Translations under genes and position numbers: made by a program
Shown here: piece by piece, positions 21,793 through 26,203 of the stretch
Layout of the letters: each line of letters begins with the position of its first letter
How positions within the stretch are numbered: position 1 is the stretch's first letter
Source: Thermoplasmata archaeon
GTDB lineage: Archaea > Thermoplasmatota > Thermoplasmata > Lutacidiplasmatales > UBA184
DNA length: 48,848 nucleotides
Direction: 5' to 3'
NCBI GenBank assembly: GCA_030037395.1
Contig: JASHRJ010000110.1
Span: 1 to 48,848 of the forward strand
Notes under the pieces: model-generated
What the model was told of the DNA's origin: nothing
The model's input: the letters and a program-made list of their open reading frames with translations, nothing else
Database searches by the model: none

Positions 21793-22833
21793 ATGGACCG
21801 AGGAGGGCTGGTTCTCGAGACGTCCGACCTCGGCTACTCCTATGCCCCCGGAAGGTTCGCCATACGGCATCTGTCGATCGGTCTTCGCCGCGGCGAGATC
21901 CTCGGCCTGCTGGGGCGCAACGGCGCGGGGAAGACCACCACCGTTCGGCTCCTCACGACCTTGCTCCCTCCGACCGAGGGGACGGCGGTGGTCCTCGGGC
22001 AGGACCTCCGGACCGGAGGGCGGGCCCTGCGCGCGCACCTCGGGGTCGTCCTGCAATCCGAGTCGCTCGACTTCGTGACGGTCGAGCGGAACCTCACGCT
22101 GTATGCGTTCCTCTGGGGCGTGCCCCGCGAGAAGGCGAAGGCCCGCGCGGAGGAGATGATCGAGCTGTTCGAGCTGGGAGAGGCGCGACGGCGCAAGCCG
22201 TGGGCGCTCTCGGGGGGGGAACGGCGACGGTTCCAGGTCGCCCGGGAGCTCATGCACGACATGGAGATCCTCTTTCTCGACGAGCCGACCGTCGGTCTGG
22301 ACGCGCTCGCCCGCCGGCGGATCCTGAGGTACCTTCGGGACCGGGCCCGCGGGGGTCTTTCCATCGTTTTCACGACCCACATCCTCCACGAGGCAGACAC
22401 GCTCTGCGACCGGATCGCCGTCCTCCACCTGGGCCGGCTGATCGCGCTCGACTCCGCCGAGGAGCTGAAACGCCAGCACGGCGGCGCGCGGGAGGTCTCG
22501 TTGACGTTCGCCGTCCCGCTCTCGACGGAGCTCCGGACCGAGCTCACCCGGGAACTCGCCGCCCGGGGCGCGACCGCCGTGCCGCAGGAGCCGAACGCGG
22601 ACGCCTCGGGCCGGCTGGTCTTCCAGGCGCGAGGCGCCGAGGAGCTCCTGCCGTGGATCAGCGGGTGGTCGCACACGAGGGGTCTGGCGGTCGACCGGAT
22701 GTCCGTTGAGGCGGCGACGCTCGAGGGCGCCTTTCTCGGGATGATCGAGGAGACCGACGAGGAGGCTCGGGACGGCGAGGCGGGCCGGTCCTCGCCCGAG
22801 AGGCTGCGCGGCACCGCGGGAGGAGTCCCGTGA
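21793..22833 (+). CDS. ABC transporter ATP-binding protein (second exporter)
   Basis: This 346-residue ABC ATPase has Walker A GRNGAGKTTT, signature LSGGERRRFQVAREL and Walker B MEILFLDEPTVGLDAL, plus a C-terminal regulatory domain of the DrrA/NatA type. The H-loop is VFTTHILHEAD. It should energise an ABC-2 exporter with the permease whose GTG overlaps its TGA (GTGA). A Shine-Dalgarno-like GAGGAGG lies about 25-30 nt before the ATG, and the gene follows tRNA-Gly by 118 bp without a clear TATA, so readthrough from the tRNA promoter is possible. The substrate is unknown. Confidence 0.92.
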   Translation: MDRGGLVLETSDLGYSYAPGRFAIRHLSIGLRRGEILGLLGRNGAGKTTTVRLLTTLLPPTEGTAVVLGQDLRTGGRALRAHLGVVLQSESLDFVTVERNLTLYAFLWGVPREKAKARAEEMIELFELGEARRRKPWALSGGERRRFQVARELMHDMEILFLDEPTVGLDALARRRILRYLRDRARGGLSIVFTTHILHEADTLCDRIAVLHLGRLIALDSAEELKRQHGGAREVSLTFAVPLSTELRTELTRELAARGATAVPQEPNADASGRLVFQARGAEELLPWISGWSHTRGLAVDRMSVEAATLEGAFLGMIEETDEEARDGEAGRSSPERLRGTAGGVP

Positions 22834-23603
22834 GACTGCCGCCGGTCCTGAGGCTCGTCGCGCGGAACTTTGCCTCGAATCTCGACCCGCTGACAATCAT
22901 CATCCGGTTCGGTCAGCCGGCCGTCACGATCGTCGTGCTCGGTACGATGTTCAGCTCGATCGTCTCCTCGAGCGTCACGGGCGGAACGTCGTACACCGCG
23001 TTCCTCGTGCCGGGGATGGTCGCCTTTCAGATGATCACCGGCGGCGTGGTGTCGGGCAACCTCTTCTGGCTCGACCGGCGATGGTCGATGGTCGAGCAGA
23101 TCTTCAGCGGGCCGTTCCTCCGCTCGGAGTACCTTGGCGGCCTCGTGCTCACGACCCTCCTGTTCTCGCTCGTCGGCGTCGGGGTGATGATGCTGGTCGG
23201 ACTGCCGTTCATCGGGGTGCCGGCCCTTTCCGCGGTCGGCGTCGGCGGGGTGCTGCTCACCGTCGGACTCGGCAGCATCTTCTTCGCCGGCTTGCTGATC
23301 GCCCTGGGCACCCGGCTGCGGTCCGCGAACGCCTACTTCACGATCCAATCCTTCCTCCAGCTGTTCGTCATCTTCCTCTCGACGGTCTACTACCCGGTGA
23401 CCTCGGCGACGCCGAGGGTCCTCGGCGTGATCTTCTACGGCAACCCCCTCACCTACGCGGCGAACACTATCCGCGACGCGTTCGCCGGCCGGCTGGGCTC
23501 GGGCGACCTGGTCTCCTTCGGGGTCCTCGGAGGGCTCGCCGCCGCGGCGTTCGGGGCGGCGATCTGGGGGTTCCGAACGATGGACCTCGGCCCGATCCAG
23601 TGA
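22830..23603 (+). CDS. ABC-2 type transporter permease (second exporter)
   Basis: This 257-residue integral membrane protein has about six hydrophobic segments (ITIVVLGTMFSSIV, VGVGVMMLVGLPFIGVPAL, FLQLFVIFLSTVYYPV) and the ABC2-membrane signature GNPLTYAANTIRDAF near the C-terminus. It is translationally coupled to the preceding ATPase. The pair parallels the TetR-linked exporter at 7.7-9.5 kb but shows no adjacent regulator. Confidence 0.9.
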   Translation: MRLPPVLRLVARNFASNLDPLTIIIRFGQPAVTIVVLGTMFSSIVSSSVTGGTSYTAFLVPGMVAFQMITGGVVSGNLFWLDRRWSMVEQIFSGPFLRSEYLGGLVLTTLLFSLVGVGVMMLVGLPFIGVPALSAVGVGGVLLTVGLGSIFFAGLLIALGTRLRSANAYFTIQSFLQLFVIFLSTVYYPVTSATPRVLGVIFYGNPLTYAANTIRDAFAGRLGSGDLVSFGVLGGLAAAAFGAAIWGFRTMDLGPIQ

Positions 23604-23930
23604 ACCCCCGCGCGGTCGGCGCCCGCCCCGCGATCGCTTCCGGCGGGCGGGCCTCCGTGACGAGGCGACGACCGCTGGTCGGCCGGCGGTGGTCCGCTCC
23701 AGCGCGCACGCCTGCGCCCCGGTCGCGGGACGCGACACCCACCGCGGTCCGTGCGGGCCCGGCGCCCGGACGGCCGGCACCGACCTCGCGATCGCCGCGC
23801 CGGCGACGTGCTTCGCGGCCACCCTCTCCTCCCGGTGGCTCGCGTTCGGCCCGAGGCCGTAGGCGCGCGGGGTGTCCGACCCCCCCGCAGAGGTATAGAC
23901 GGCGGCGCGGCATCCTCCCCGCGGGCCGGC
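23604..23930. other. Intergenic region before the HesB-like/MIP18 gene
   Basis: Of this 327-bp stretch, the first 50 bases contain an 8-bp inverted repeat (GCCCGCCC and GGGCGGGC) that could form a hairpin after the permease stop. A TATA-like GGTATAGAC at about 23891-23899 fits a promoter 31-36 bp before ATG 23931. A short plus-strand frame ending ATLSSRWLAFGPRP at 23862 lacks a credible start. Nothing else was recognised. Confidence 0.4.
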
Positions 23931-24644
23931 ATGACGGGTGGGGACGAGGGACCGCGGGCGGGCGGGAAGGAGGGGCCGGCGGCCGCGGTCCGGCTGCGCC
24001 TGAGCCCGCCCGCGCGTGATGCGCTGGTCCACGCGCTCGCCGGGCGCCCCGCCGGTTCCGGGGTCCGGGTCTGGGTCGAGCGGGGTCTCCACCCGCACGC
24101 CCAGATGATGATCGATCGGCCGAGCGTCCGGGACCACCCGGTGACGGTCGACGGCGTGCCGCTCCTGATCGACGAGGCGAGCGTCCACTTCCTGCGCGAC
24201 GCCTCGGTCGACTATCGGACCGATGCCGACCCCCCGGGGTTCGAGGTCGTCGGACCGTTCCTTCCTTCCCGGGCCGCGCCCGGAGAGGCTGCCCCGCTCC
24301 CGGCGCCCCCCGAGGGGGAAGCCGCCCCCCCGGGCCCGCACGCGGACGCGGAGGGCCGTGTCCGCGAGGCGCTCCGGTCGATCTACGACCCGGAGATCCC
24401 GATGAACATCGTCGATCTCGGCCTCATCTACGGCCTCGAGTGGTCCGCCGCCGGCGAGCTCGCCGTCCGGATGACGATGACCAGCCCGGGCTGCCCGGCG
24501 GTCGAGGAGCTGGTCCGGGAGGTCGAGTCGGCGGCCCGCTCCGCGAGCGGCGCGCCGTCGGTGCGGGTCGAGATCGTCTGGGAGCCGCCGTGGGGGCCGG
24601 AGCGGATGACCGCCTTCGCCCGGCGCCAGTTCGGCTACGCTTAG
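23931..24644 (+). CDS. HesB/IscA-like domain fused to MIP18 (DUF59) domain
   Basis: This 237-residue protein has two parts. Residues about 20-110 follow the A-type iron-sulfur carrier fold (VRLRLSPPARDALVHAL, GVRVWVERGLHPHAQ, DGVPLLIDEASVHFLRDAS, VDYRTDADPPGFEVVGP). All three iron-binding cysteines of that family are missing. After a Pro/Ala-rich linker, residues about 145-237 form a MIP18/SufT-type domain (IYDPEIPMNIVDLGLIYGLE, MTMTSPGCPAVEEL), including the conserved cysteine. MIP18 proteins help insert Fe-S clusters into target proteins. ATG 23931 was chosen because it follows the TATA; the track start at 23751 is too early. Confidence 0.82.
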   Translation: MTGGDEGPRAGGKEGPAAAVRLRLSPPARDALVHALAGRPAGSGVRVWVERGLHPHAQMMIDRPSVRDHPVTVDGVPLLIDEASVHFLRDASVDYRTDADPPGFEVVGPFLPSRAAPGEAAPLPAPPEGEAAPPGPHADAEGRVREALRSIYDPEIPMNIVDLGLIYGLEWSAAGELAVRMTMTSPGCPAVEELVREVESAARSASGAPSVRVEIVWEPPWGPERMTAFARRQFGYA

Positions 24645-24655
24645 CGGGGCATCCC

Positions 24656-26203
24656 TCAGCTCCCCGGGTTCCGGGGGAGCGGGGAACCGCAGGCCTGGCA
24701 GCTGCGTCGGATCGGAACGTTGGAGGCGCCGCACCTCGGGCAGGTCTTGGCGCCGTGCACCGTCGCGCTGGGACCGGTGGGTGGCAGCCAGCGGGAGAGG
24801 ACCGACGTGCGGTCGGCGGAAGCGTCGCGGCGTCGGACGACCCCGGAGACCCCGGCGAGGGCCGCGCCCACGCCGGCGGCGGCGAACAGCACCACGGCGG
24901 GGGGGATCCAGGTGAACACGGGCCGCGGCTGGACGTGGACCACCGCGGACGCCGCGGTGCGGACGCCGAGGGCATCCGTGACCACGCACTGCGCGACATA
25001 GGTCCCGGCCGCGGCGTAGCTCGTCGACCCGTTCGCGGCGTCGCTGCCGGCGGCGTTCGCGAGGGTCCGCCCGTTGCCGAGCGTCCACACGACGGCGAGG
25101 GGAGAGGTCCCCGGCGTCCCGACGCAGGCGAACGCCACGGGGTCGCCGACGGTCGCGTTGAGCGGCGACGCGCTCGCCGCGATCCCCGGCGCCGCGTCGA
25201 CGAAGATGGTCGCCGGGGCCGCGAGGTAGCGGTTCGAGGCGTGGTCCGTCACCTGGCAGGAGACCACGTACGTACCGGCCGCCGCGTAGGCGCGGCTCGT
25301 CGTGCCGGGCCCGGCGACGAGCGTCGTCCCGTTGGTGAAGTTCCAGGCGAACGTGTACGGTGGGGTCCCGCCGTCCGGCGTGCACGTGATCTGGTCGGGC
25401 AGGCCGGCGTCGACCCTCGGGAGGGCGACCGCGAGCGAGGCCACGAGGGAGGTGGCGGTCCCGGCGGTGAGGACGTTCGACTCGGTGGCGGAGGTGCCGT
25501 TCGCCGGGCATCCGGCGCAGCTGTCGACCGTCCGCACGTAGAACGAGTAGCTCGACCCCGCCGAGAGACCGGTGACGTTCGTCGCGGCGGAGGCGACGGA
25601 GTCGATCGTGGCATACGTGTCGGTGACGTTGTCGACGACCTCCTCGAGGTCGTACTCGCCGAACCCGATCCCCCCTCCGTAGCGGGCGGAGTTCGTCCAG
25701 GCGAGCGCGACGGAGGTCGAGGTGTTCGACGGCGAGCTCAGGACCGCGACGGCCGGCTGGGTTGCGTTGAGGACCGTGCTCGAGTCGGCCGCCGTACCGC
25801 CCAGCCCGAGCAGGCCGGTCTGGTAGTAGGCCGTAACGTTCCACCAGTAGGTGGCCCCGGGGGCGAGGTCGGGGACGACCGCGGTCGTCGTACCCTCGTT
25901 CGGTTCCTCCACCGCAAACGACCACGGACCTGACGGACCCGCCGTCGAGTAGGTGACGGAGTAGTTGTCGAAGTACGCCTCGGTGGAGGCATTCCACACG
26001 AGCGAGATCGCGGCCGGAGCGATCCCGTTGCTCGACAGGGCGAACGCGGCGGGCGGCGGCGCGGGGCCCGGAGCGGAGGGGCTGGCGCCGGAGCCCCGGG
26101 CCGGCGACGCGAACCCGATCGCGAGGCCTCCTACGACGAGCAGGACGGCCAGCAGGGCCGGGGGCGCACGCGCGCGCAGCGCGCCCCGCGGTCGGCGTCC
26201 CAT
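24656..26203 (-). CDS. Surface protein with FN3-like and PKD domains, membrane anchor and cytoplasmic zinc ribbon
   Basis: This 515-residue protein starts with a signal peptide or N-terminal anchor ([16 protein letters not shown]). Two fibronectin-III-like domains follow ([42 protein letters not shown]), then two PKD-like domains ([46 protein letters not shown]). A C-terminal membrane segment ([22 protein letters not shown]) leads to a cytoplasmic tail ending in a CPRCG...CQACG zinc ribbon. Numerous N-x-S/T sites suggest glycosylation. The zinc ribbon on the inside hints at signalling or anchoring rather than a purely structural role. A reverse-strand TATA-like GTATATC lies about 32-38 bp upstream. 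Confidence 0.85.

Follow-up and report, generated by a model that had tools for sequence, protein, structure and literature searches.

A conserved archaeal fusion of a cysteine-free IscA/HesB-fold domain to a MIP18/SufT domain

Escherichia coli NfuA begins with an IscA-fold domain without ligand cysteines and continues into a domain of another Fe-S trafficking family, i.e., an Nfu domain that holds a 4Fe-4S cluster via a CxxC motif; its degenerate A-type domain reportedly directs NfuA to apo-proteins (PMC8593673). Proteins of the SufT/MIP18/CIA2 (DUF59) group are marked by the motif DPE-X26-31-T-X2/3-C, and Mycobacterium tuberculosis SufT is a homodimer that binds no iron and contacts SufS, SufU, aconitase, and SufR via its conserved cysteine (PMC9045647). 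In Staphylococcus aureus, mutations of sufT and nfu act synergistically, and multicopy nfu partly relieves a sufT mutant, while Oligotropha carboxidovorans OCA5_c02770 consists of an Nfu N-terminus fused to SufT (PMC4982691). The molecular role of SufT/MIP18 proteins is unsettled, and the conserved natural fusion described here ties MIP18 physically to the A-type carrier family.

Within the 48,848-nt stretch of Thermoplasmata DNA under study (contig JASHRJ010000110.1; hereafter the window), an intact ORF at 23931-24644 (+) gives an uninterrupted 237-residue translation made up of a degenerate A-type (IscA/HesB-fold) domain, a linker, and a MIP18/SufT domain. As in NfuA, an N-terminal IscA-fold domain without ligand cysteines precedes a domain of another Fe-S trafficking family; in contrast to NfuA, that domain is MIP18/SufT, with one cysteine. 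The C-terminal domain shares DPE...T-x3-C with SufT/MIP18/CIA2 proteins, but bacterial SufT proteins typically consist of DUF59 only, whereas the fusion adds a dead A-type domain. In alphaproteobacteria, the Nfu N-terminus is probably a domain unlike IscA; OCA5_c02770 is comparable in that SufT is joined to the N-terminal part of another Fe-S protein (there Nfu). HCF101, comprising MIP18, an ApbC-type ATPase, and DUF971, likewise builds MIP18 as a module into a larger protein for Fe-S transfer, its partner being a P-loop ATPase instead of an A-type domain. DsrR of Allochromatium vinosum, described as an IscA-like protein that binds neither iron nor Fe-S and acting in the regulation of sulfur oxidation, differs in being stand-alone and without MIP18. 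We thus regard the fusion as a known design in a new form, not a new kind of system, and infer its function below.

A GTATAG sequence resembling an archaeal TATA box lies at 23893-23898 (+), 33-38 nt 5' of the ATG, and GTATA or GTAAA versions occur ~30-40 nt upstream of most genus g1 copies (by inspection). These elements suggest that the fusion gene is transcribed separately, from a promoter of its own and with little or no leader.

The MIP18/SufT half (residues 140-237; 24348-24641, +) matches DUF59 structures in the PDB and, over residues 143-214, Pfam PF01883 (E=2.9e-17; 63.1 bits vs. a cut-off of 23.5). Its motif is intact and invariant, running from D153-P-E155 through 28 residues to T184 and, after 3 residues, C188 (DPE-X28-T-X3-C). 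The C188 codon (24492-24494, +) specifies the residue at which the DUF59 motif has its reactive cysteine (PMC9045647). This residue, in the sequence SPGC, is the sole cysteine among the 237 and is invariant in 36/36 aligned rows, in agreement with the initial annotation, which had the MIP18 half retaining its SPGC cysteine. The score against the NCBIfam SUF_assoc equivalog TIGR02945 (102.6 bits) is under the threshold of 143.4, so the MIP18 half is a family relative and not a SUF_assoc equivalog. In a tree, the fused MIP18 halves cluster with standalone MIP18 proteins of genera g3-g5 from the same family, with weak support at that fork.

For the N-terminal domain (residues 20-112; 23988-24266, +), the match to Pfam PF01521 is under the cut-off (E=0.29), the NCBIfam NfuA model is matched at 1.8e-5 and the TIGR00049 A-type model at 1.4e-4, and a profile of 36 homologue rows finds E. 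coli IscA in a PDB set at 1e-11. A PHROGs search gave no match. The AlphaFold2 model of the fusion has a mean pLDDT of 87.2, with blocks of 90-98 in the N-domain, for which Foldseek returns IscA 1s98 at a probability of 1.00 (TM 0.74) and 1r94, 2d2a, and 1nwb at the same probability; overall, the matches of the model fall separately on DUF59 structures and on IscA, SufA, AQ_1857, and DsrR (PDB 2k4z). The N-region is thus predicted to adopt the IscA/HesB fold, the point on which a fold check had been proposed. The Pro/Ala/Gly-rich linker (residues 113-139; 24267-24347, +) has low pLDDT (62 and 51 in two blocks), and at a pTM of only 0.51 the model does not fix how the two domains sit relative to each other.

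When aligned with E. coli IscA, the N-domain has no cysteine at any of the three ligand positions (C35, C99, and C101 in IscA). The IscA C35 loop (SGCSG) aligns to residues 51-58 (RGLHPHAQ; 24081-24104, +), which stand in place of the canonical GGCSG loop with the first cysteine. The C-x-C tail is also gone: carriers continue into it at the point where the N-domain ends (residues 104-112, FEVVGPFLP; 24240-24266, +), while the fusion runs into its linker instead. The A-type pattern devoid of its three iron-binding cysteines, noted at the outset, is therefore borne out. The ligand cysteines are absent from the N-domain of every fused copy found, and the cysteines present in a few homologues are at other positions (e.g., VDCV in genus g2). 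Owing to this uniform absence, we would not class the N-domain as an A-type carrier, although its predicted fold is that of the A-type family.

Six N-domain residues (R46, G52, P55, D81, F104, and P109) are invariant in 36/36 rows, with G52 and P55 forming a G-x-x-P motif at the site of the first cysteine loop. This replacement motif and the four other invariant positions argue that the N-domain is constrained, and not decaying, in its cysteine-free state. In the same alignment, mean pairwise identity is highest in MIP18 (0.63), intermediate in the N-domain (0.46), and lowest in the linker (0.20). The N-domain dN/dS is 0.14 and 0.32 in the two closest pairs; wider pairs give high values (median 0.57) that are unreliable owing to saturation and GC bias, and on which we do not rely.

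Of 103 genomes in the window's Thermoplasmata family, at least 43, from 6/7 genera, carry the fusion; the count comprises 40 genomes with 41 full-length copies between them, and 3 further copies truncated by contig ends. Recurrence in separate assemblies rules out chance or an assembly or frame artefact, and the presence of copies across the family, together with universal cysteine loss and conservation, rules out an outlier or pseudogene, which settles the question raised earlier of whether homologues had kept their cysteines. The observation of a two-part, putative Fe-S assembly protein, with a cysteine-free A-type domain joined to a MIP18/SufT domain, is thereby confirmed. One genome (G062) holds two divergent fusion copies, L017:1501-2172 (contig C27) and L062:7867-8559 (C24). 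Since over half of the family's genomes (some of them incomplete) have no detected fusion, the protein would not be universally needed. No full-length fusion was found outside the family among 390 genomes from the phylum and 400 from the class. A wider contig scan, covering the best 80 loci and thus leaving room for rarer fusions elsewhere, yielded one, the Thermoplasmata record JASHSA010000039.1. Bacterial loci matching both halves (e.g., L079, L090, and L124) proved to be two adjacent genes, sufT then A-type; many bacteria have sufT next to an A-type gene. In the part of the literature covered, we found no report of an archaeal DUF59/A-type fusion.

An A-type match is present in 93 of the 103 family genomes, and most encode a canonical A-type carrier (GGCSG...CSCGKSF) as a separate gene. 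The assemblies with no A-type match are that of the window, which is 84% complete, and nine more, most of them incomplete. Many genomes encode a second, Cys/Gly-rich A-type protein, often adjoining the canonical carrier. This unusual paralogue (L041:3561-4007, L044:4677-5096, and more) has Gly/Cys-rich insertions such as GGGGCGCGSGGGGCGCG at the site of the first cysteine loop, as well as a GGCGCG tail; to our knowledge, this paralogue type has no precedent in the literature. At three loci, L042:5125-5535 (-), L043:933-1490 (+), and L045:1591-2055 (+), the cysteine-free domain is encoded alone, with no MIP18 remnant seen in the three downstream frames. The cysteine-free domains form one clade with these solo genes nested within it (99/94), which suggests that the solo genes are duplicates from which the MIP18 half was lost. 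When E. coli IscA and NfuA are included, the g2 Cys-rich A-type protein joins the cysteine-free clade (98/89) and NfuA falls outside it, on a long branch. These N-domain trees, with few columns and long branches, are provisional; they favour a single local origin of the cysteine-free domains and an independent resemblance to NfuA.

The window's genome encodes SUF core proteins, an ApbC/Mrp-type ATPase, and a standalone MIP18. No Nfu domain (PF01106) was detected in the 103 family genomes by a search that was positive in five control genomes. All five g2 genomes (5/5), two of them 98% complete, have the fusion as their sole detected PF01883 protein, so that what it binds and what its cysteine does would be testable within one polypeptide. 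Among identified neighbours, no conserved Fe-S assembly or SUF gene, sufBC included, lies beside the fusion; sufT beside sufBC is itself frequent without being universal. Nor was a conserved operon found, as neighbourhoods differ between genera: upstream lie an ABC-2 transporter (window), an alpha/beta hydrolase (sister genomes), or hemerythrin-like and unknown genes (other genera); the genes near g2 copies include those for an aminotransferase, TruB, Ni-SOD, and thioredoxin.

On balance, we consider it probable that the fusion is an adaptor for Fe-S protein maturation, with docking left to the dead A-type domain and the productive contact to the MIP18 cysteine. The N-domain would not hold a cluster in the manner of an A-type carrier; having kept its fold, it would offer a surface on which a client apo-protein or a carrier with a cluster could dock. 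By way of the flexible linker, the MIP18/SufT domain could reach that same target and would act through C188, perhaps in cluster transfer. In mechanism, the fusion would be a counterpart of NfuA, with MIP18 standing in for the Nfu domain. This account draws on (i) retention of the fold with loss of the ligands in every copy, together with the invariant residues and the dN/dS below 1 in the two closest pairs, (ii) the intact MIP18 motif, alongside coexisting A-type carriers in most genomes and no Nfu domain in any of the 103, (iii) the SUF core and ApbC/Mrp-type ATPase of the window's genome and the g2 fusion as sole MIP18 protein, and (iv) the precedents of the degenerate NfuA domain, the SufT cysteine, the S. 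aureus nfu/sufT genetics, the Nfu-N-terminus-SufT fusion, and sufT/A-type adjacency. Weighing against it are the want of a conserved Fe-S neighbour gene, the many family members with no detected fusion, the low pTM, and the high, if unreliable, dN/dS of wider pairs. The suggestion in the initial annotation that the degenerate domain may have become a docking module is supported as an inference, with a close functional precedent in NfuA that it did not name.

A-type proteins are oligomers. This property, the cysteine-bearing and often tandem paralogues of the family, and the retained fold would also suit a hetero-oligomer module, whereby the dead domain pairs with canonical or Cys-rich carriers via the family's dimer surfaces and feeds their cluster to MIP18 or its client, without recognising clients on its own; we think this unlikely, though deserving of attention, as the window's assembly and nine others, most of them incomplete, have no detected A-type gene with which to pair. 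The structural match to DsrR and the three loci with a cysteine-free domain alone could instead indicate a module that serves regulation or stability and does not take part in delivering clusters, an explanation made improbable by the covalent link to an Fe-S factor in 43 genomes and by the lack of sulfur-oxidation genes among the neighbours seen. The same solo genes, in retaining the N-domain without MIP18, speak against a drifting relic of an accidental fusion in which MIP18 alone matters. Such a relic would fit the faster evolution of the N-domain relative to MIP18, but conservation far above that of the linker, invariant replacement residues, and persistence across six genera make it very improbable.

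The family may have evolved the NfuA design independently, with MIP18 in the role of Nfu and with the fusion replacing ordinary MIP18 altogether in g2, a scenario that we hold to be a serious possibility while stopping a little short of calling it probable. Were it true, it would suggest that the change from an A-type carrier to a cysteine-free docking domain happened more than once.

The immediate surroundings of the fusion gene in the window have features of their own. Just upstream, at 21793-23603 (+), genes for an ABC transporter ATPase and an ABC-2 membrane protein overlap by 4 nt; conservation of this pair does not extend to most relatives. The gene at 24656-26203 (-) is convergent with the fusion gene and encodes a predicted surface protein of 515 aa that has repeats of the fn3 and PKD types, a hydrophobic stretch, and a zinc ribbon at its C-terminus.
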